Shown: piece after piece, positions 2,947 to 14,784 of the stretch
Position numbering within the stretch: position 1 is the first letter of the stretch
How the letters are laid out: each line of letters starts with the position of its first letter
The notes under the pieces: generated by a model
The model's database searches: none
Seen by the model: only the letters and a program-made list of their open reading frames with translations
Told to the model about the DNA's origin: nothing
From: Embleya scabrispora DSM 41855
Lineage (GTDB): Bacteria; Actinomycetota; Actinomycetes; Streptomycetales; Streptomycetaceae
NCBI RefSeq assembly: GCF_000372745.1
Contig: NZ_KB889664.1
Coordinates: 62,001-126,000 of the forward strand
Length of the DNA: 64,000 nt
Direction of reading: 5' to 3'
Position numbers and translations under genes: made by a program

Positions 2947-4463
2947 CCCTCTCCGAGGAGTGGTCGGCCACCGCGCGCCGCCGACCGACCATGCGGCTGT
3001 CCACCCGGATCGCGCTGGCCGTGGGTGTGCTCGTCCCGCTCCTGGTGATCGCCGCCGGAACCATGGTCGTGCGCTGGGTCACCGCCGACGTGACCCACCG
3101 TCAGGACGTGGCCCTGCGGCAGCGCGCCGACCACCTCGCACCCGACGGGCGGGCGCTGCTGCGCGCCGTGGAGAACGATCGGACGAACGCGGTCCGCGCC
3201 CGGGAGAACAAGCTGTTCGACGGCGCGCTCGATCTTGGCGTGCGGGTCGAACTGCCCGGCGGACCGGTGTCCGCGGGACCGCAACCGCCGCCGGACGTGC
3301 CGCTGCCGGACCCCCGGCACCGCGGTCCGGTCACGGTCCGCGCCGACGGCAAGGCATGGCGCGTGGTCACCCGCCCGCTCGGCGCCGCCCGCGGCGGCGC
3401 GGGCACCCTGCGGGTGTTCCAGCCGACCACCGAGACCGACGAGCGGACCGCGCTGCTGCGTCGGCGCGTGCTCGTCGTCGCCGCGTTCGCCGTACCGATC
3501 TCGGCGCTGGCCGGCCTCGCCGTCGGCGCCGGCGCGACCCGCTCGTTGCGCGCGCTGCGTCGGCGCGCGGCCGCGATCGAGCCGGACGACGACGCGCGCC
3601 CGGACGTACACCTGCCGTCCGCTGTGGCCGAGGTGGACGATCTCGGTCGCACGCTCGCGGCGGTGCTCGGTCGCTACGACGCGCAGACCGCCCGCACCCG
3701 CGAAGCACTGGAGACGGCACGCGCGTTCGCCGCGACGGTGGACCACGAACTGCGCGGGCCGCTCACCGGCATCCGCACCGACCTGGACGTGCTCGCGGCG
3801 TATCCCGACCTCGCGCCGGCGGAGCGCGCCGAGGTCCTCGGCGACCTCATGGCCGGGCAGGAGCGCATCCTTTCCCTGCTCGCGTCGCTGCGCGCGCTCG
3901 CCCAGGGGGACCTGGCCGACGGGCAGGGCTTCGAGCGGGTCGACTTGGGCGAGCTGGCGCACGAGGCGGCCCGTGACGCGCGGATGCGGCATCCGGGCGC
4001 GGACGTGGCGGTGTGCGCACCGCAGGAGATCCGGGTGGACGGCCTGCGGCCGGGGCTGCGGTTGCTCCTGGACAACCTGATCGGCAACGCCCTCGTGCAC
4101 GGACGCGGGCCGGACCGTGGGGCCTCGATCCGCATCGGTGTCGACGCCGACGCCGCCGGCGGGGCCCGGATCCGGGTGGACGACGACGGCCCGGGGATAC
4201 CCGTCGAGCGGCGTGAGCAGGTGTTCGAGCGCTTCCGCCGCGGCCCGGACAGCCCGGGGGCGGGCCTGGGCCTGACCCTGGTCGCCCAGCAGGTGGCGCT
4301 GCACCGGGGACAGGTCGCCATCGGCACCGCGCCGCCCGGACCCGGCACCCGCGTCGAGGTACTGCTGCCGATGCGGCACCCGGCCGAGCCGACGGACGGC
4401 CCCGGGGAAATCCGACACGACTGGCTGACCCGCGAACCGACGGAATCCGCCCCACCGGGTTGA
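2943..4463 (+). CDS. Membrane sensor histidine kinase
   Basis: This 506-residue protein is the partner of the overlapping regulator gene. Two membrane segments (about residues 21-45 and 172-195) flank an extracytoplasmic sensor region of ~125 residues. A HAMP-like linker, a phospho-acceptor region with HELRGPL, an N box (DNLIGNALVHG), a G1 box (DDDGPGIP) and a G2 box (GAGLGLTL) follow, so the ATPase core is complete. The last ~20 codons, after the expected end of the catalytic domain, are made from the first copy of a ~95-bp tandem repeat that continues downstream, so the C-terminal tail (from about GEIRHDW) looks like read-through into repeat DNA. The signal sensed is unknown. Confidence 0.93.
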   Translation: MTLSEEWSATARRRPTMRLSTRIALAVGVLVPLLVIAAGTMVVRWVTADVTHRQDVALRQRADHLAPDGRALLRAVENDRTNAVRARENKLFDGALDLGVRVELPGGPVSAGPQPPPDVPLPDPRHRGPVTVRADGKAWRVVTRPLGAARGGAGTLRVFQPTTETDERTALLRRRVLVVAAFAVPISALAGLAVGAGATRSLRALRRRAAAIEPDDDARPDVHLPSAVAEVDDLGRTLAAVLGRYDAQTARTREALETARAFAATVDHELRGPLTGIRTDLDVLAAYPDLAPAERAEVLGDLMAGQERILSLLASLRALAQGDLADGQGFERVDLGELAHEAARDARMRHPGADVAVCAPQEIRVDGLRPGLRLLLDNLIGNALVHGRGPDRGASIRIGVDADAAGGARIRVDDDGPGIPVERREQVFERFRRGPDSPGAGLGLTLVAQQVALHRGQVAIGTAPPGPGTRVEVLLPMRHPAEPTDGPGEIRHDWLTREPTESAPPG

Positions 4464-5807: not shown

Positions 5808-6524
5808 CTACCCGGCGACCGCCGATTCGACGGGCTCACCGGCCGGGACCCGCACCGCCACGAACCACGGCGTGCGTCGCAGTCGAAAGCCCAGCGACTC
5901 GTACAGCCGGATCGCGGTCACGTTCTCGGCCGCCGCGTGCAGGAACGGCGTCTCGCCGCGGGCGGTGATGCCGGCCACCAACGCCAGGACCAGACGACTC
6001 GCCAAACCGTGCCCGCGCCACGCCGGATCGGTGCACACCGCGCTGATCTCGGTCCAGCCGGGCGGATGCAGTCGTTCCCCGGCCATCGCTATCAGCGCAC
6101 CGTCGCGGCGAACCCCGAGGTAGGTGCCCAGTTCGATGGTCCGGGGCAGGAACGGGCCCGGTCGGGTACGCGCGACCAGGTCGAGCATCTCGGGCACATC
6201 GGCGGCGGCGAGCCGAACCAGCGAGTCGTCCGGCCGCCCGGCGACCGCATCGCCCAGCATCTGCACCCCGCCGATGCGCATCACCACCTCCCACGGCGCG
6301 GGCGGGCGCAACGCGTCGCCGTCGGCGAGCGGCAGGACCGCGCCCGGACCCGCCAGCGCGGCCAGGTCCGCCCAGTCCGTTGGGCCGGGATCGTCCGGTA
6401 GGGCGGCGAACGGCGCCACATCGGGGAGGTAGCGCACGACCCGGCCCCTGTGTTCGGCCAGCCCCGCGTGTGGGCCGGTCAGGGACGAATAGGCTACGTT
6501 GTCCAGCACGCGCACGTCGTTCAT
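5808..6524 (-). CDS. GNAT-family N-acetyltransferase (FR47-like)
   Basis: The 238-residue protein has its acetyl-CoA-binding half at the C-terminus. ISAVCTDPAWRGHGLASRL contains the (R/Q)xxGxG/A signature of motif A, followed by LHAAAENVTAIRLYESLGF, the typical GNAT motif B with the YESLGF ending. The first ~110 residues are less conserved. The ATG at 6524 is chosen because upstream codons have no homology-like character; the frame stays open to 6755. The acetyl acceptor is unknown. A cysteine-type leader peptide (6768-6863) lies upstream on the same strand, so expression may respond to cysteine or sulfur supply, but that link is only positional. Confidence 0.82.
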   Translation of the reverse strand: MNDVRVLDNVAYSSLTGPHAGLAEHRGRVVRYLPDVAPFAALPDDPGPTDWADLAALAGPGAVLPLADGDALRPPAPWEVVMRIGGVQMLGDAVAGRPDDSLVRLAAADVPEMLDLVARTRPGPFLPRTIELGTYLGVRRDGALIAMAGERLHPPGWTEISAVCTDPAWRGHGLASRLVLALVAGITARGETPFLHAAAENVTAIRLYESLGFRLRRTPWFVAVRVPAGEPVESAVAG

Positions 6525-6767
6525 GCCGTGCCGGCCGTCACTCGGGATGGGGACATCGTCGATCCACTCCGCTCTGCTGTCGGCTGAAGGAGGGCGGCCG
6601 GACGAGTGCCGACGCGCCGAACTCGGCGGCGTCACACCGCGCTTCCCGCCCTGCCGAAAAAGGTCGCCGCGCACGCGGCCGGCCGAGCGAACCGATCGGG
6701 CCGGTCTCCTCGACCGGTTCCGGACGGCGCGATCGACGGCGCGGTCACCCGGCATCGGCCGGACGGC

Positions 6768-6863
6768 TCAGGACGAGCCGGGCAGCGCGGATAGACACGC
6801 GGCACTGCTCACCCGTAGCAGGTCGATGTGCCTGCGGGTCGCCAACCGGATCCGAGCCTGCAT
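6768..6863 (-). CDS. Putative cysteine-attenuation leader peptide (31 residues)
   Basis: A 31-codon ORF starting at ATG 6863 contains ATRRHIDLLRVSSAACL, a close match to the R-H-(I/V)-D-L-x-R-x-(A/S)-S-A-x-C signature of the short ORFs annotated as putative leader peptides upstream of sulfur-assimilation genes in Streptomyces. In the accepted model, ribosome stalling at the Cys codon near the end couples expression of the following gene to cysteinyl-tRNA level. The ribosome site is weak. The next gene on this strand is the GNAT at 6524, 243 bp on; no classic sulfur gene follows, so the leader may control the GNAT or may have lost its original target. Confidence 0.7.
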   Translation of the reverse strand: MQARIRLATRRHIDLLRVSSAACLSALPGSS

Positions 6864-7242
6864 GATCGGCAGGTTACGAGCTGGATCGCGCCCCGTCAAA
6901 GGGTGTCCACGGCTCGACGCATCCACACCACCCATCCGCCGGCCGGTCGGATCCGCCCCTTCGGGGCGCCGGTCACGGCGGCGGTAAAGCGCCTGTCCCG
7001 ACCGGCTGTTGCCGCCCCGCGGGTCGATGGACAAGAGCCCGCGGGCTGCGTTAGCGTCGCGACGTCGGCCGGGATCGGTCGTCGCAGCAGTACGTGTCAC
7101 GAGTGCCAACGTTCAGCCCCGGCTTGTTGGTCGGCAACCCTCCTCCGCGACGGGGTGCCCCGGGTGAGGACACGGCCGCGCGTCTTTCGCGTGGCAACGC
7201 GGGGCCCGCCTCGACGGGCCCAGGGGGCAAGGGGACGATGTC
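6864..7242. other. Divergent intergenic region between two leader-peptide ORFs
   Basis: The stretch separates the leftward leader (start 6863) from the rightward leader (start 7243) and must hold both promoters. A small hairpin with 7-bp arms (about 7202-7221, GGGCCCG/CGGGCCC) precedes the rightward leader. No convincing -35/-10 pair and no other gene were found. Confidence 0.4.
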
Positions 7243-7413
7243 ATGAGCAGGTGTGTGAACGCGGTGTGGCACCGCGCCGCCGCACCCGCCGTGCCGACCC
7301 GGGCCGCCCACCGGACGAACACCTCCGGACGGAACCCGAGTTCGCCCCGGACCCGACTGACCCGGCGGCTGTTCATCGACCTGCGTCGCTCCGCCGGCTC
7401 CCTGTGTCGCTGA
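7243..7413 (+). CDS. Putative cysteine-attenuation leader peptide upstream of LLM monooxygenases (56 residues)
   Basis: The ORF from ATG 7243 ends in LTRRLFIDLRRSAGSLCR just before its stop, matching the conserved tail of actinomycete sulfur-gene leader peptides (basic run, (H/F)IDL, R, S/A-rich, Cys as second-last codon). AAGGGG lies at 7229-7234, at a good distance from the ATG. Known members are usually 20-40 residues, so the first ~35 codons are either a divergent extension or the true start is internal (GTG at 7291). The downstream genes encode two LLM flavin monooxygenases, of the type used to release sulfur from organosulfur compounds, which fits the model. Confidence 0.65.
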   Translation: MSRCVNAVWHRAAAPAVPTRAAHRTNTSGRNPSSPRTRLTRRLFIDLRRSAGSLCR

Positions 7414-7829
7414 CCCACTAGCACCCACCACCCGGGCGAACCGCGGCCGAAGCACGGCACCGCGCGCCCGCGGTCGCGTCGTCATGCCGGTCCACCGGCG
7501 AGCCGCGCCCGGTGCGCGCTCCCGCGGCGATTTCGTCGCTCCGGTCGAACCGGTCCCGGGCTCCGCCGAGTTCACCGCCCCACGCAGCACCCGGGAACCG
7601 GCACCCGTCCGTCGCTCGCCCACCCCAATCGACACCCGACCGGCCCGGGCCGGCGGACGCCGGCTCGCATCCGACGACGAACGACGTCCGCCGTGCCGTG
7701 ACGCCCGCCCGTCTTGCCCGCGACCGAGCCTGCCCCACCGACCACACGCGCCTCACTCGTCGAACCCCGAACCCGCGACCCCGAACCCGCGACCTCGAAC
7801 CCGCGCCCCACCGAAAGCGAGACCCACCC
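7414..7829 (+). promoter_or_regulatory. Untranslated region between leader peptide and LLM genes
   Basis: The 416 bp between the leader stop and the first monooxygenase contains no supported gene. By position it is where a terminator/antiterminator switch would sit. I did not find one clear hairpin; several GC-rich inverted repeats are possible, so a folding calculation is needed. Confidence 0.35.
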
Positions 7830-9053
7830 ATGACCACCCCGAACACCCCCGACCCGTTGCACCTGGCCGTCGCGCTGGACGGCGCCGGCTGGCATCCGGC
7901 CGCCTGGCGCGAACCCGACGCCCGCCCGACCGAGCTGTTCACCGCCCGCTACTGGACCGACCTGGTCGCCGAGGCGGAAGCGGGCCTGCTCGACTTCGTC
8001 ACCATCGAGGACGCACTCGCGCTGCAATCCACCCGATTCGAGGGCACCGACACCCGCACCGACCAGGTCCGTGGTCGACTGGACGCGGTGCTGATCGCCT
8101 CGCGCGTCGCGCCGCTGACCGAACACATCGGACTGATCCCGACCGCCACCGTCACACACACCGAGCCGTTCCACGTCTCCAAGGCGATCGCCACGCTCGA
8201 CTTCGTCAGCCTCGGCCGTGCCGGGTGGCGCGCCCAGGTGTCCCGGCCGGCCGAGAACGCGCACTTCGGCCGCCGCGAGCACGTGCCGTTCACCGTCGAG
8301 GACCTCGACCGGCCCGACGTGGCGGCCGCGGTCGCGGAAAGCTTCGCCGAGGCACAGGACTTCGTCGAGGTGGTGCGCCGGTTGTGGGACAGCTGGGAGG
8401 ACGACGCGGAGATCCGCGACGCGGCCACCGACCGGTTCATCGACCGCGGCAAGCTGCACTACATCGACTTCGTCGGACCCAGGTTCCGGGTCCGTGGGCC
8501 CTCGATCGTGCCACGCCCGCCGCAGGGCCAGCCGCTGGTGACCGTACTGGCACACGCCACGCTGCCGTACCGGCTCGGCGCCCGCGCCGCCGACGTCGTG
8601 TACGTGACACCGCGCGACCACGACGACGCACGTGCCATCGTCACCGAGATCCGCGCCGAACAACGCGCCGCCGGGCGGGAGTCGGAGACCGTGCACGTCT
8701 TCGCCGACCTGGTCGTCCTCCTCGACGAGAGCACCGCCGCGGCCCGTGACCGCAAGGCCCGTCTGGACGCACTCGACGGCGCCGAATACGCCGGTGACGC
8801 ACTCGTGTTCACCGGCACGGCCGCAGACCTCGCCGACACCCTCCAGGACTGGCAACGTGCCGGGCTGACCGGATTCCGCCTGCGCCCGGCCGCGTTGCCG
8901 CACGACCTGCACGCCGTCACCCGCGACCTGGTGCCCGAACTGCAACGCCGCGGCGCCTTCCGCACCGGCTACGAAGCCGGCTCGCTGCGCGCCCGACTCG
9001 GCCTGCCGCGCCCCGACAGCCGCTACGCCACGCCCACGGCGGCAGCCTCGTGA
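7830..9053 (+). CDS. LLM-class flavin-dependent monooxygenase
   Basis: This 407-residue protein is a bacterial luciferase-like TIM-barrel oxidoreductase. Typical features are the N-terminal LAVALDGAGWHP strand, the barrel segments LLDFVTIEDAL and VAPLTEHIGLIPT, and the LDFVSLGRAGW motif in which the family usually has S-GR-GW. Such enzymes use reduced flavin supplied by a separate reductase to oxygenate organosulfur, amine or related substrates. The ATG at 7830 is chosen because the upstream open frame lacks family features. It is followed 61 bp later by a second, different LLM gene and preceded by a cysteine-type leader peptide, so sulfur-compound catabolism is the best inference. No flavin reductase or transporter gene is adjacent. 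Confidence 0.85.
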   Translation: MTTPNTPDPLHLAVALDGAGWHPAAWREPDARPTELFTARYWTDLVAEAEAGLLDFVTIEDALALQSTRFEGTDTRTDQVRGRLDAVLIASRVAPLTEHIGLIPTATVTHTEPFHVSKAIATLDFVSLGRAGWRAQVSRPAENAHFGRREHVPFTVEDLDRPDVAAAVAESFAEAQDFVEVVRRLWDSWEDDAEIRDAATDRFIDRGKLHYIDFVGPRFRVRGPSIVPRPPQGQPLVTVLAHATLPYRLGARAADVVYVTPRDHDDARAIVTEIRAEQRAAGRESETVHVFADLVVLLDESTAAARDRKARLDALDGAEYAGDALVFTGTAADLADTLQDWQRAGLTGFRLRPAALPHDLHAVTRDLVPELQRRGAFRTGYEAGSLRARLGLPRPDSRYATPTAAAS

Positions 9054-9114: not shown

Positions 9115-10482
9115 ATGAGCACGTCGCGCAAGCAGATCATCCTCGGCGCCTACGTGGGAGGCGTGAACCACCACACCGTGTGGTCCGATCCCCAGGCCGG
9201 CAGCCAGATCGACTTCTCCACCTTCAAACACGTCGCGCAGACCGCCGAACGCGGCCGATTCGACTTCTTCTTCCTCGCCGAGGGCCTGGCCCTGCGCGAA
9301 CGCCTGGGCCTGATCTTCGACCAGGACGTGGTCGGACGCCCCGACACGCTGCCCGTGCTCAGCGCCCTGGCCGCCGTCACCGAACACCTGGGCCTGATCG
9401 GCACGGTCAACGCAACCTTCAACGAACCCTACGAACTGGCCCGCCAGTTGAGCACCCTCGACCACCTGTCCGGCGGCCGGGCCGGCTGGAACGTGGTCAC
9501 CTCCTTCGACGCGTTCACCGGCGCGAACTTCCGCCGCGGCGGCTTCCTGGACCGCAAGGACCGCTACACCCGGGCCGGCGAGTTCCTGGCCGCCGCCCGC
9601 GAACTGTGGGACTCCTGGGCGGTGGACGCGGTGGCCGCCGACCGGGACACGGGCGTCTTCCTACGCGATGCCAAGGCCGGTCGATTCGCTTTCACCGGCG
9701 AGCAGTTCGACATCTCCGGCCGATTCGCCACGCCGCGCAGCCCGCAGGGCCGGCCGGTGATCCTCCAGGCCGGCGTCTCGCCGCAGGGCCGCGACTTCGC
9801 CGCCGGCGGAGCCGACGCGATCTTCTCGCCCTACCACCGCCTCGACGAGGCGCAGGCGTTCTACCGCGACATCCAGGCCCGGGCCGACCGCCTGGGCAGG
9901 CCCTCCGGCTCGGTCAAACTGCTGCCGCACGCGTCCTTCGTCCTCGGCGACAGCGAAGCCGACGCCGCCGAGCGACACCGCGACATCACCCGGCGCCAGA
10001 TCGGCGGACGCACCGCGCAGATCCTGCTGGAGACGGTCTGGAACCGCGACCTGTCCGGCTACGACCCGGACGGCCCGCTGCCCGACGTGGATCCGGACCC
10101 CGACGGCCCGCCGCTGGCGCAGGGCCGGGCCCGGATCGCCGAGGACGCGCACCGCAGGGTCGCCGAGTGGCGGGCGCTGGCGGAGGCCGCCAAGTACTCG
10201 CTGCGCGATTTGGCCATCCACGTGTTCGGCCGCACCGAGTTCGTCGGCACCCCCGCCCACGTGGCCGAACGGATCGACACGTTCGTCCAGCAGGACGGCT
10301 CGGACGGCTTCATCGTGGGCTCCCACCTGACCCCCACCGGCCTCGACGAGTTCGTCGACAAGGTCGTCCCGCTGCTCCAGGAACGCGGCTCGCTGCGGGC
10401 CGAATACACCGGCGGCACACTGCGCGAGAACCTGGGCATCGCGCCGGTCGAGGAGGTGGGCGCCGACGCACGCGTGGCGTGA
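9115..10482 (+). CDS. NtaA/SnaA/DszA-family flavin monooxygenase
   Basis: The 455-residue product belongs to the longer LLM subfamily that includes nitrilotriacetate monooxygenase NtaA, SnaA and dibenzothiophene-sulfone monooxygenase DszA. Family marks are FDFFFLAEGLALRE, LSGGRAGWNVVTS, the long insert after it, and HVAQTAERG near residue 40. AAGGGA precedes the ATG. It probably forms one transcription unit with the preceding LLM gene and ends at a strong hairpin (10488-10520). Substrate is not determinable; with the upstream leader peptide, a C-S bond-cleaving role is plausible. A reduced-flavin supply from elsewhere would be required. Confidence 0.88.
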   Translation: MSTSRKQIILGAYVGGVNHHTVWSDPQAGSQIDFSTFKHVAQTAERGRFDFFFLAEGLALRERLGLIFDQDVVGRPDTLPVLSALAAVTEHLGLIGTVNATFNEPYELARQLSTLDHLSGGRAGWNVVTSFDAFTGANFRRGGFLDRKDRYTRAGEFLAAARELWDSWAVDAVAADRDTGVFLRDAKAGRFAFTGEQFDISGRFATPRSPQGRPVILQAGVSPQGRDFAAGGADAIFSPYHRLDEAQAFYRDIQARADRLGRPSGSVKLLPHASFVLGDSEADAAERHRDITRRQIGGRTAQILLETVWNRDLSGYDPDGPLPDVDPDPDGPPLAQGRARIAEDAHRRVAEWRALAEAAKYSLRDLAIHVFGRTEFVGTPAHVAERIDTFVQQDGSDGFIVGSHLTPTGLDEFVDKVVPLLQERGSLRAEYTGGTLRENLGIAPVEEVGADARVA

Positions 10483-10527: not shown

Positions 10528-12042
10528 TCACCCGTTCGGTACCCAGTCCAACGTGCGCTGCACCGCCCGCTTCCAGTCGGCGTAGCCGCTCTCTCGGCGC
10601 TCGCGGTCCCACTCCGGTTCCCAGCGGGCGTCCTGATTCCAGTTGGCCCGCAACTCGTCGGTGTCCCGCCAGAAACCGACCGCGAGACCGGCGGCGTACG
10701 CCGCGCCCAGCGCGGTGGTCTCCGGGACCGTCGGCCGGATCACCGGCACCCCCAACACGTCGGCCTGGATCTGCATGCACAGGCTGTTGTCGGTGACACC
10801 GCCGTCCACCTTCAACACGCTCAGCTCCACACCGGAGTCCTTGGCCATCGCATCCACCACGTCTCGGCTCTGGTAACAGATCGCCTCCAGCGTGGCCCGG
10901 GCGACGTGGCCCACGTCGTGGTACCGGGCGAGCCCGACGATCGCGCCGCGCGCGTCACTGCGCCAATACGGCGCGAACAAGCCGGAGAAGGCCGGGACGA
11001 AGTACACCCCGGCGGTGTCCTCGACCTGCCGGGCCAAGGTCTCGCTGTCCGCGGCCTTCTTGATGATGTGCAACTGGTCGCGCAGCCACTGCACCGCCGA
11101 CCCGGTCACCGCGATCGACCCCTCCAGCGCGTACACCGGGTCCTGCCCCGCGAAGTGGTAGGCCACCGTGGTGAGCAGGCCGTGCTGGGAGCGCACGATC
11201 CGGTTGCCGGTGTTGAGGAGCATGAAGTTGCCGGTGCCGTAGGTGTTCTTCGCCTCGCCCTCGGCGAAGCACACCTGGCCCACCGTGGCCGCGTGCTGAT
11301 CGCCCAGCGTGCCGGTCAGCGGAATCCCCACCAGCGGACTCGTGTCGGGCGACTTGCCGTAGCCGTCCGGATAGCTCGACGGGCGGATGGTGGGCAACAT
11401 GGCGCGCGGAATGTCGAAGAACGACAACAGCTCGTCGTCCCAGTCCAGCGTGCGCAGATCCATCAACATCGTGCGCGAGGCGTTGGTGACGTCGGTGACG
11501 TGCACACCCCCGCGGGACCCGCCGGTCAGGTTCCACAACAACCAGGTGTCGATGGTGCCGAAGATCGCGTCGCCGCGCTCGGCGTCCCGGCGCGCCCCGT
11601 CGACGTTCTCCAGGATCCACTGCACCTTGCCCGCCGCGAAGTACGTCGACGGCGGCAGACCCGCCTTGGCCCGGATCACCTCGCCCCGATGGTCCTGATC
11701 CAACGCGCGGGCGATCCTGTCGGTGCGGGTGTCCTGCCAGACGATCGCGTTGTAGTACGGCCTTCCGTTGTGCCGATTCCACACCACCGTCGTCTCGCGC
11801 TGATTGGTGATGCCCAGCGCGGCGAAGTCGGCGGGTGTGAGGTTGTAGTGGTTGAGGCCACTGGCGATCACCGAACGGGTGCGCTCCCAGATCTCCACCG
11901 GGCTGTGCTCCACCCACCCCGCCCGCGGCATGATCTGCCCATGCTCCAACTGCTGGCGCCCGACCACGCTGCCGCTGTGATCGAAGACCATGAACCGGGT
12001 ACTGCTGGTGCCCTGATCGATTGCCGCGACGAAATCCGCCAT
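10528..12042 (-). CDS. glpK: Glycerol kinase
   Basis: The 504-residue FGGY-family kinase begins [18 protein letters not shown], the standard glycerol kinase phosphate-binding start. It also has [19 protein letters not shown], the FGGY signature region around [11 protein letters not shown], and the typical DQHAATVGQ segment. It converts glycerol to sn-glycerol 3-phosphate with ATP in the cytoplasm. It is the third gene of the minus-strand operon glpD-glpF-glpK, 61 bp after glpF, and ends at the hairpin at 10488-10520. Full length, with no sign of damage. Confidence 0.96.
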
Positions 12043-12103
12043 CTCGAACCCTTACTGTGGCGACGCCCGGACGTGGCGCCGAGTCGGATGTGCCGTACGG
12101 CGG

Positions 12104-12961
12104 TCAGTCGGCTTCGAGCACTCTGCCCGCCGGCTGCTCCGCCGTGGGCAGGAACGGCGCGATCAGCCACCGGTACAGGGCTGCCCCGATCACGCCGCCG
12201 ATGAACGGCCCGACGATCGGCACCCAGAAGTACAGATTCCCGTACTGATCGCGCCACGCCCCGTCGTAGCCGGTCAAAAAGCTGGCCAGCCGCGGCCCGA
12301 AGTCGCGGGCCGGGTTGATCGCGTAGCCGGCGTCGGCACCGAACGCCATCCCGATCGCGACCACCAACAGGCCGGTCAGCAACGCGCCGAGGTTGGCCTT
12401 GGGCGCCGTGTTGAGCACGTCCGTCAACGCCATGATCACCAGTAGCAGGATCGCGGTGCCGATGATCTGGTCGCGCAACGCCCCCCACTCGCTGACCGGG
12501 AATGTGCCGTTGCCCGGCAGCGTGGAGAAGACCACCTGCGTCTTGATCGTGTGCCCGGGATCGGCCTGAGCCAGGATCTCCGTGTAGTTCCAGCGCACCA
12601 GCAGTGCCGCGACGAAGGCTCCCGCGATCTGCGCGAGCGCGTACGGCGCCACCTTGTGCCAGGGGAAGCCGCGGAAGGTCGCGAGCGCCACCGTCACCGC
12701 CGGATTCAGATGCGCGCCCGAGGTGCGCGCGGCGATGTACACCCCGAACGTAACCCCCAGGCCCCAGGCCCACGCGATGCTGTCGTGATCGCCCAGCTTG
12801 CCCGCGACGACCTGCGCCACCACCCCGGTGCCGAACAGGATGAGCACCATCGTGCCGACGAACTCGGCGACCATCTCGCCGCCGATCTGCCACCGTTCGC
12901 TCCGTGCGGGGGCCGGGTCCGCCCGGCGTGCCCCGGTCTCCGGCGCCGCGCCCGCGCTCAT
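12104..12961 (-). CDS. glpF: Glycerol uptake facilitator (aquaglyceroporin)
   Basis: The 285-residue MIP-family channel has the two half-helix motifs, HLNPAVTV and the second as INPARDFGPR; an Asp after the second NPAR is typical of glycerol facilitators as opposed to water-only channels. Six membrane segments are visible from about residue 35 to 270. The ATG at 12961 overlaps the glpD stop (ATGA); the frame is open further upstream but that part is glpD antisense-free coding overlap without channel features. It lets glycerol diffuse through the membrane for phosphorylation by the next gene, glpK. Confidence 0.95.
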   Translation of the reverse strand: MSAGAAPETGARRADPAPARSERWQIGGEMVAEFVGTMVLILFGTGVVAQVVAGKLGDHDSIAWAWGLGVTFGVYIAARTSGAHLNPAVTVALATFRGFPWHKVAPYALAQIAGAFVAALLVRWNYTEILAQADPGHTIKTQVVFSTLPGNGTFPVSEWGALRDQIIGTAILLLVIMALTDVLNTAPKANLGALLTGLLVVAIGMAFGADAGYAINPARDFGPRLASFLTGYDGAWRDQYGNLYFWVPIVGPFIGGVIGAALYRWLIAPFLPTAEQPAGRVLEAD

Positions 12962-14673
12962 GGCGCCGGAACGATGTCGGGGGCGCCGAGACGGGCCGCG
13001 TCGGCGGTCAGGTCGTCCGGTTGTCGCTGGGCGTCTCGTTCGGCCTCGACCCGTTTTCCGTAGTGCGTGATCTCGTCGCGGATCTGCTGCTCGTCCCAGC
13101 CCAGCGGCTCGGCCATCAGCCGCGCCGCGATCTCGGCCGCCTCCACCCCGCGATCCCACGACTCGATCGAGGCCCGGGTGCGCCGGGTGAGCACGTCGTC
13201 CAGGTGGTGCGCGCCCTCGTGGGTGACCGCATACACCACCTCGGCCCGCAGGTAGTCGTCCGCGCCGGGCAAGGGCATGGCCAACTCCGGATCACGCTCG
13301 ATGAGTTCGAGCACCTCGCCGATCATCGAGCCGTACCGGGCGAGCAGATGCTCGATGCGCACCACATGCAGCCCGGACGTCCGGGCCAGGCTGTGTCGGC
13401 GATTGCGCAGCGCCTGGTATCCGTCGGCGCCCAGCAGCGGCACGTCGTGGGTCACCGACGGGCCCGGACGCGGGCCGTCGAGCGTGCGCACCGCCTCGTC
13501 CACGGCGTCCTTGGCCATCACCCGATACGTGGTGTACTTGCCGCCGGCGATCACCACCAGGCCCGGAACGGGATGGCCGACCAGGTGCTCCCGGGACAGC
13601 TTGCTGGTTTCGGCCGCGTCGCCCGCCAGCAGCGGTCGCAGGCCCGCGTACACGCCCTCCACGTCGTCCCGGGACAGCGGCGTGGCCAGCACCCGGTTGA
13701 CGTGCTCCAGCAGATAGTCGATGTCGCGCGAACTGGCCGCGGGGTGCTGCTTGTCCAGGTCCCACGGGGTGTCGGTGGTCCCGATCAGCCAGTGCCGGCC
13801 CCACGGGATCACGAACAGCACACTGGCCTCGGTGCGCAGGATCAACCCGGACCGCGAGTTCACCCGATCCCGAGGCACGAGCACGTGTACGCCCTTGGAA
13901 GCGCGCACATGGAACTGGCCCCGGGTGTCGGCCATCGCCTGGGTGTCGTCGGTCCACACGCCGGTCGCGTTGATCACCTGTTTGGCGTGCACCTCGAACA
14001 CGCGGCCCGACTCGACGTCCACGACCGTCGCGCCGGTGACCCGTTCGCCTTGTCGGAGGAAGCCGGTGACCCTGGTCCGGTTGGCCACGTGCGCGCCGTA
14101 CGCGGCCGCCGTGCGGGTGATGGTCATGGTGTGCCGGGCGTCGTCGACCTGCGCGTCCCAGTACTGCACCGCGCCGATCAGCGCGTCCGATTTGAGCGCG
14201 GGCACCTCGCGCAGCGCGCTGTGCCTGGTCAGATGCCGGTGATGCGGCAGACCCCGGGAATAGCCGGAGGTCATGCCCATCGTGTCGTACAGGAGCACCC
14301 CGGCGCCGACGTACAGCCGCTCCCATCCGCGATGGGTCAGCGGGTACAGGAACTTCACCGGGCGCACCAGGTGCGGGGCCAGTCGCTGGACCAGCAGACC
14401 ACGCTCGCGCAGCGCCTCCTGGACGAGCCGGAAGTCCAACATCTCCAGGTAGCGCAGCCCGCCGTGGATGAGCTTGCTGGAGCGACTGGAGGTGCCGCTG
14501 GCCCAGTCCCGGCCCTCGACCAGGCCCACGCTCAGGCCCCTGGTGACGGCGTCCAGCGCACACCCGGCACCGACGACACCTCCGCCGACGACCAGGATGT
14601 CCAGCTCTTGGCCGGATCCCATGGCGGTCAGGGCATCTTCGCGGGCCTTCGGCGACAGGGCGACGGGCTTCAC
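12958..14673 (-). CDS. glpD: Aerobic glycerol-3-phosphate dehydrogenase
   Basis: The 571-residue FAD enzyme has the dinucleotide-binding motif VVGGGVVGAGCALD near the N-terminus, followed by the GlpD-specific RSSKLIHGGLRYLE and, at about residue 290, the RDRVNSRSGLI region. It oxidises glycerol 3-phosphate to dihydroxyacetone phosphate, passing electrons to membrane quinone. The GTG at 14673 is preferred to the ATG at 14697 because GAGGAG lies 6 bases upstream of it. It is the first gene of the operon; in the gyl operon of S. coelicolor the dehydrogenase is last, so gene order differs. No IclR-type regulator gene is adjacent. Confidence 0.95.
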   Translation of the reverse strand: MKPVALSPKAREDALTAMGSGQELDILVVGGGVVGAGCALDAVTRGLSVGLVEGRDWASGTSSRSSKLIHGGLRYLEMLDFRLVQEALRERGLLVQRLAPHLVRPVKFLYPLTHRGWERLYVGAGVLLYDTMGMTSGYSRGLPHHRHLTRHSALREVPALKSDALIGAVQYWDAQVDDARHTMTITRTAAAYGAHVANRTRVTGFLRQGERVTGATVVDVESGRVFEVHAKQVINATGVWTDDTQAMADTRGQFHVRASKGVHVLVPRDRVNSRSGLILRTEASVLFVIPWGRHWLIGTTDTPWDLDKQHPAASSRDIDYLLEHVNRVLATPLSRDDVEGVYAGLRPLLAGDAAETSKLSREHLVGHPVPGLVVIAGGKYTTYRVMAKDAVDEAVRTLDGPRPGPSVTHDVPLLGADGYQALRNRRHSLARTSGLHVVRIEHLLARYGSMIGEVLELIERDPELAMPLPGADDYLRAEVVYAVTHEGAHHLDDVLTRRTRASIESWDRGVEAAEIAARLMAEPLGWDEQQIRDEITHYGKRVEAERDAQRQPDDLTADAARLGAPDIVPAP

Positions 14674-14784
14674 GTCGGACTCCTCGGCAGGGAACACTGG
14701 CCCCTACATTCGATGGCCTGCGCTCCCCACCTGCACGTCGAGCCACGTCCATTGTGGGCCGGGCGGAGTAATGCGAGAGGTCGA

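Follow-up and report, generated by a model that had tools for sequence, protein, structure and literature searches.

We lean slightly towards reading the plus arm of the locus described here, in which a predicted SAM-IV riboswitch is followed by a short cysteine-containing leader ORF and then by two flavin monooxygenase genes, as a serial two-input switch that would turn ON only at low levels of both SAM and cysteine. The locus lies in a 64-kb window (the whole stretch of DNA analysed) and carries two divergent leaders that are not equivalent, the plus leader being riboswitch-led and the minus leader looking leaderless. An earlier note on this DNA had placed both leader ORFs where we find them, at 6863-6768 on the minus strand and at 7243-7413 on the plus strand; it did not contain the SAM-IV aptamer at 7095-7205(+), which is located between them.

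The aptamer and the two leaders of the window

The element at 7095-7205(+) is a predicted SAM-sensing aptamer. In a covariance-model search it matched RF00634 completely (model positions 1-116) with 90 bits against a gathering threshold of 38 (E 1.7e-16), and it is the sole Rfam match at gathering level across the 64 kb. A promoter-like element lies ahead of it at 7028-7057(+), with TGGACA at 7028, an 18-nt spacer and TAGCGT at 7052; a consensus promoter scan did not pick this element up. From the aptamer end to the ATG of the plus leader at 7243 there are 38 nt, with the purine-rich AAGGGG at 7229-7234 ahead of the start, and the Shine-Dalgarno (SD) sequence of this leader is weaker than those of its relatives. 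The plus ORF of the earlier note exists, but the fragment given for it was too short: it runs for 56 aa from ATG 7243 to the stop at 7413, with the C-terminal end RRLFIDLRRSAGSLCR. Two genus-mates retain both the plus promoter region, in which the promoter-like element is conserved, and the plus leader, in which the segment RRLFIDLRRSAGSLC is conserved; the SAM-IV element and the minus leader are both absent there.

The minus leader (MQARIRLATRRHIDLLRVSSAACLSALPGSS; ATG 6863, stop 6768) scored 30.1 bits and the plus leader 27.6 bits against NF042934, 'putative leader peptide' (cut-off 27), in keeping with the leader-peptide signature previously claimed for the two ORFs; when the minus frame was taken from a distant TTG at 7109 the score was 26.1 bits, slightly under the cut-off. 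In both leaders a conserved Cys codon of the kind found in cysteine-responsive attenuators stands near the leader stop, TGT at 6797-6795(-) and TGT at 7405-7407(+). The minus leader (RRHIDLLRVSSAAC and its tail) resembles the leaders on the transporter arms of relatives. The promoter-like element of this arm at 6871-6899(-) consists of TTGACG (6899-6894), a 17-nt spacer and TAACCT (6876-6871), and is conserved in two genus-mates. Its TAACCT box stands 7 nt ahead of the minus leader ATG; in the mycobacterial type of leaderless leader ORF a -10 element likewise precedes the start by 6-7 nt. Judged by this spacing the minus leader looks leaderless and the plus leader does not appear to be of the leaderless type. 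No riboswitch was found on the minus arm.

In the whole 11.4-Mb genome there are 10 NF042934 matches, two of them in the window, and the leaders that we examined precede apparent cysteine synthase, sulfite reductase, transport and monooxygenase genes (assigned by eye, no family search). The shared sulfur regulon that had been suggested for the two leaders is supported by these neighbours and also by the synteny and downstream genes of relatives.

Recurrence of the riboswitch-leader order

At 21 of the 29 LLM1 loci of relatives a regex search found a leader no more than 1.5 kb away on the strand of the LLM genes, with an opposite-strand leader too in L051, L053, L055, L057 and L060. A back-to-back leader pair is also present in L090, and this recurrence does not support the earlier view that such a pair is unusual. 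SAM-IV elements lay on the LLM arm at 10 of the 29 loci, and on both arms in five. The regex gave at least one false match (minus strand of L063) and missed leaders that were later found by an HMM.

A SAM-IV search gave 142 matches in 81 family genomes, and the composite was counted in a sample of 100 sites with downstream DNA, with the two copies of this genome and 40 others outside the sample. By eye, 79 of the 100 sites were picked as unlike the single SAM-IV copy common to nearly all genomes, and 21 were like it. An HMM trained on the eight leaders located elsewhere in this genome found a leader downstream of SAM-IV at 56 of the 100 sites (56/79 and 0/21). The downstream gene could be called at 97 sites, and a leader was present ahead of LLM1 in 10/10 cases, of a transporter permease cluster in 18/19 and of GST-like genes in 8/8; it was present at 0/35 sites that led to an aminotransferase class V gene and at 0/3 that led directly to GNAT. 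When the 17 aminotransferase-V and three GNAT sites are set aside from the 79 picked by eye, 59 remain, and 56 of these have an HMM leader; the HMM missed L137 and L160, where a leader was recognised by eye, and L111, where a degraded one was. At least one composite was found by HMM in 35 of the 81 family genomes, to which this genome is additional. Among 58 peptides (the 56 SAM-IV leaders and the two window leaders) 51 matched NF042934 at E 0.001. At 80 LLM1 loci from named strains the HMM found a plus-strand leader in 21 and SAM-IV occurred in four; neither genus-mate locus among them had SAM-IV.

In a phylum sample of SAM-IV sites outside the family no HMM leader was found downstream. At L308 of Ornithinimicrobium cavernae, a poly-Cys ORF (WGCRCCCSPCCL, in the region 3700-3840) begins at +14 after SAM-IV (3586-3700), and LLM1 comes next; the ORF is unrelated in sequence and lacks the HIDL motif. 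This is apparently a separate case, and the presence of a poly-Cys ORF behind SAM-IV supports cysteine as the second input. The opposite SAM-IV of L308 stands directly before another gene start. At L223, also outside the family, SAM-IV is followed by an ORF of 15-16 codons (MCIHQAHSRRFVCRR), possibly another leader type.

Constraint on the leader codons

Neither D nor L varies in any of the 56 full motif rows, and their codons change silently (for D, GAC in 32 and GAT in 24); Arg 8 is present in 54. Single-base codon differences within the motif were synonymous at a share of 0.70 versus 0.30 expected; the 14 codons preceding the motif gave 0.28 versus 0.25 expected, and the two shifted frames 0.19 and 0.09. 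High-GC DNA is rich in short ORFs, and it could be argued that the leaders are chance frames or untranslated RNA motifs, but the synonymous bias is confined to the leader frame and the leader HMM had no matches in its controls (0/100 on the antisense strand, 0/500 dinucleotide shuffles at 10 bits or more), so that we give this explanation almost no credence.

The motif-final Cys is present in 50 of the 56 rows, and its codon is TGT in 50/50, against a background of 43 TGT among 258 Cys codons in called genes; since the rows are related to one another, a binomial value for this contrast does not amount to a true probability. Most other silent motif positions vary. Codon 10 also has a fixed third base, C, and TGC encodes each of the seven Cys residues that occur there. 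Riboswitch-less, poly-Cys and named-strain leaders, as judged by inspection, use TGT for the motif-final Cys as well. UGC is the usual Cys codon, yet the motif-final Cys is UGU in every leader that has Cys there; wobble decoding by a single tRNA-Cys would be our guess at the origin of this preference.

Two of the 58 leaders, L161 and L170, both GST-linked, have no Cys codon from the motif to the stop, which hints at sensing through the nascent chain. These leaders, ahead of GST-like genes, end RLHIDLLRVSSAY. The leader could be an arrest peptide, in which the nascent RRxHxDLxRVxSA stalls the ribosome on a metabolite and the supply for the Cys codon is secondary, an explanation that is compatible with riboswitch gating. 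It would account for the D-L pair kept in all 56 rows through silent codon changes, for the near-constant Arg 8 and for the Cys-less leaders, and classical attenuators are not known to conserve more than the regulatory codons. Neither the final Cys, frequent and always UGU, nor the motif-less poly-Cys leaders found in the same place, such as that of L308, are expected from an arrest peptide, and we regard it as a tentative alternative.

Start geometry and the RNA behind the leader

An SD 5 nt or longer precedes 46 of the 56 SAM-IV-linked leaders, whose starts lie +12 to +51 after the aptamer. Beyond the family, 15 SAM-IV sites were compared, and there too the majority of SD-led starts fall within 60 nt; since the genes there start at similar distances the leader seems to occupy the slot of the gene that the riboswitch would regulate directly. 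Riboswitch-less leaders have a TAnnnT box 6-7 nt before the start codon in 12 of 21 cases and an SD in 2 of 21, and the box stands at 18 of 3470 ATG/GTG overall in the same loci. The minus leader of the window fits this riboswitch-less type, and the plus leader fits the SD type, with its weaker SD. A duplex search over the 46 leaders found no common aptamer partner that would sequester the SD; the anti-SD partners were scattered, with stretches around the aptamer-core CCCUCC common.

These geometries bear on the possibility that the two devices are independent. SAM-IV would then affect transcription or the stability of the mRNA, the leader would be a separate cysteine attenuator, and a shared promoter would be the only reason for their adjacency. 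The modules do separate cleanly, since the genus-mates keep the leader without SAM-IV and the aminotransferase-V sites have SAM-IV without a leader. However, the leader start seems to be adapted to the riboswitch, being of the SD type behind an aptamer and mostly of the leaderless type elsewhere, and we therefore consider independence unlikely.

In contrast to a classical attenuator with an intrinsic terminator, no hairpin with a U run was found from leader to gene on the plus arm or in the relatives (0/56). On the minus arm the one weak candidate, a terminator-like hairpin with a T run at 6666-6679(-) between the leader and GNAT, is not significant because 0.5 such hairpins are expected by chance against the one found, and it was not recovered by a stricter terminator test. 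Alternative hairpins had been anticipated in 6525-6767(-) and 7414-7829(+), but both inter-regions fold no better than shuffles (z +1.0, +0.7, -0.85), and we rejected stable attenuator folds as evidence. The stretch from the plus leader to LLM1 (7414-7829, plus strand) is C-rich and G-poor (C 0.486, G 0.279) and is a candidate Rho loading region; the minus-arm inter-region has C 0.365 and G 0.377. In the 80 nt past the leader stop C is 0.475 and G 0.289, compared with 0.403 and 0.313 at leader-free riboswitch sites, so that the C enrichment after leaders is modest.

The length of this stretch also matters for translational coupling, in which ribosomes that finish the leader would reinitiate at LLM1. 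A relay of this type exists at uPPE2, the B12-riboswitch uORF of M. tuberculosis, which according to the account in PMC11260477 overlaps its gene. The plus leader stop is separated from LLM1 by 416 nt, and in many relatives the gap is tens to hundreds of nt (by rough gene starts), which makes coupling most improbable.

A probable salvage locus

LLM1 (7830-9053, plus strand) is an NtaA/DmoA-type FMN monooxygenase with 271.7 bits against TIGR03860, 8 bits under the cut-off of 279.7, and YtnJ, MoxC and DszA are among its best PDB matches. LLM2 (9115-10482, plus strand) belongs to the NtaA/DmoA family with 406.6 bits against the same cut-off. The plus leader, upstream of these genes, has the sulfur-gene context described for NF042934; the minus leader has it only through the linkage of GNAT to the monooxygenases. 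The GNAT N-acetyltransferase (5808-6524, minus strand; 238 aa; Pfam FR47/Acetyltransf_1) is not a stray gene, as it neighbours the monooxygenases in many family genomes. In 200 such genomes GNAT had matches in 126 and LLM1 in 127 at the thresholds used, often no more than a few kb apart. LLM2 adjoins LLM1 in 19 of 20 fetched regions of relatives (rough gene caller; none was called in L086), and several of the 20 have divergent-arm genes that end in GNAT. By Pfam, at the loci tested, the divergent-arm genes are SBP_bac_3, BPD_transp_1 and ABC_tran, and a third LLM follows LLM2.

Among the GNAT loci of relatives none (0/29) had a leader on the strand of that gene in the 1.5 kb ahead of it; this speaks against conservation, and the position of the minus leader in front of GNAT thus sets this genome apart. 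In L090 the arm that points away from the monooxygenases reads leader, ABC transporter, GNAT. The only homologue of the transporter solute-binding protein in this genome is 35% identical and located elsewhere, three genus-mates have no match at the threshold used, and neither a transporter nor a deacetylase was seen beside the window genes. From the synteny of relatives and the missing orthologue we infer that a transporter was lost, and the lost gene suggested in the earlier note is thereby supported in part.

An N-acetyltransferase together with YtnJ/DszA-type FMN monooxygenases is the content of a salvage locus for S-modified cysteine, and by their gene families GNAT and the two monooxygenases look like one, with such a compound as the probable substrate. 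In L108, L133 and L143, GNAT orthologues stand directly after SAM-IV with no leader found, and GNAT thus seems to be a member of the SAM-IV regulon by itself in some relatives. Elsewhere in the window a further sulfur gene, that of the methionine sulfoxide reductase MsrA, lies at 1503-2015, some 4 kb away from GNAT, and glycerol kinase-, facilitator- and glycerol-3-phosphate dehydrogenase-like genes were recognised by eye at 10528-14697(-).

A proposed serial gate

In the serial gate that we favour, the SAM-IV riboswitch would govern translation initiation at the cysteine leader ORF, and stalling or its absence at the leader UGU Cys codon would decide transcription or translation into LLM1-LLM2. 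When SAM is high the leader would stay untranslated and the operon OFF. When SAM is low and cysteine high, the ribosome would complete the leader and expose the C-rich RNA to Rho, again OFF; when both are low, a ribosome stalled near the leader stop would shield the C-rich RNA and the operon would be ON. The minus arm would have just the half that responds to cysteine, carried by a leaderless mRNA ahead of the GNAT of the same putative S-modified-cysteine salvage locus. The parts of this scheme (predicted aptamer, putative leaders, recurrent order, codon constraint and SD/start geometry) are those read from the DNA, and we infer its OFF polarity, the UGU stalling, the role of Rho, the leaderless transcription and the salvage substrate. 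Against the scheme stand the genus-mates' leader without SAM-IV, the two Cys-less leaders, the weaker SD of the window, the failure of the duplex search to find a common SD-sequestering partner, the unremarkable folds of both inter-regions, the modest size of the C enrichment and the lack of HMM leaders behind SAM-IV in the phylum sample outside the family.

Such an arrangement may restrict sulfur scavenging to a joint shortage of methionine-type and cysteine-type sulfur. A broader claim, which in our judgement is evenly balanced, is that a riboswitch-gated attenuator forms a SAM/cysteine NOR gate in which a single aptamer is combined with a stalling ribosome and a UGU-only sensor, has spread over the sulfur-scavenging operons of the family and apparently arose again in Ornithinimicrobium with an unrelated poly-Cys peptide. 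The invariant UGU would allow codon-specific sensing of an amino acid to be tested cleanly, and the composite would tie an uncharacterised GNAT/LLM cluster of soil actinomycetes to cysteine salvage.

Comparison with known systems

In the literature searched, with most subscription papers outside its coverage, we found no report of the composite of SAM-IV and cysteine leader. The window aptamer is full-length, as in the known SAM-IV class, but unlike the usual case its next start codon is that of a leader ORF and not of a sulfur gene. The SAM-IV of S. lividans is listed ahead of a cysteine desulfurase in PMC8079986, which agrees with the leader-free SAM-IV group found here. The polycysteine leader ORFs of mycobacteria (Canestrari 2020, as cited in PMC9094748 and PMC13236596) are similar in that a Cys-containing leader ORF stands ahead of sulfur genes, and the minus leader looks leaderless as they are. 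Compared with what these sources describe, the SAM-IV set differs in having a single conserved Cys, strictly UGU, and the plus leader differs in being of the SD type behind a riboswitch. The uORF that precedes cysS in Rhodobacterales has tandem Cys codons, mostly UGC according to PMC8632094, as against UGU in the leaders described here. A role for Rho at actinobacterial cys leaders was proposed earlier, as put forward in PMC1262725.

The salvage of S-alkylated cysteine described in PMC10863075 proceeds by acetylation, flavoenzyme oxidation and cleavage by CmoJ. Like that CmoO/CmoJ system the window has an N-acetyltransferase and predicted flavin C-S monooxygenases, and the loci of relatives include a third LLM and an ABC transporter besides; the window differs in that no adjacent transporter or deacetylase was seen.

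Riboswitches and leader-peptide attenuators are usually regarded as separate devices, and a riboswitch that targets an attenuator peptide would, if the serial gate is true, merge metabolite and translation-supply signals on one RNA. Among tandem riboswitches, the SAM/B12 pair is an example of NOR logic. Tandem riboswitches of that kind, as presented in PMC9481103, resemble the window in that a single 5′ UTR takes input from two metabolites, but the second sensor of the window would be a translating ribosome and not a second aptamer. The B12 riboswitch-uORF relay at ppe2 of M. tuberculosis shares with the window the path from a riboswitch through a translated short ORF to control of a gene; as set out in PMC11260477 it differs in its ligand, in having no known amino-acid-sensing codon and in working by overlap and reinitiation.
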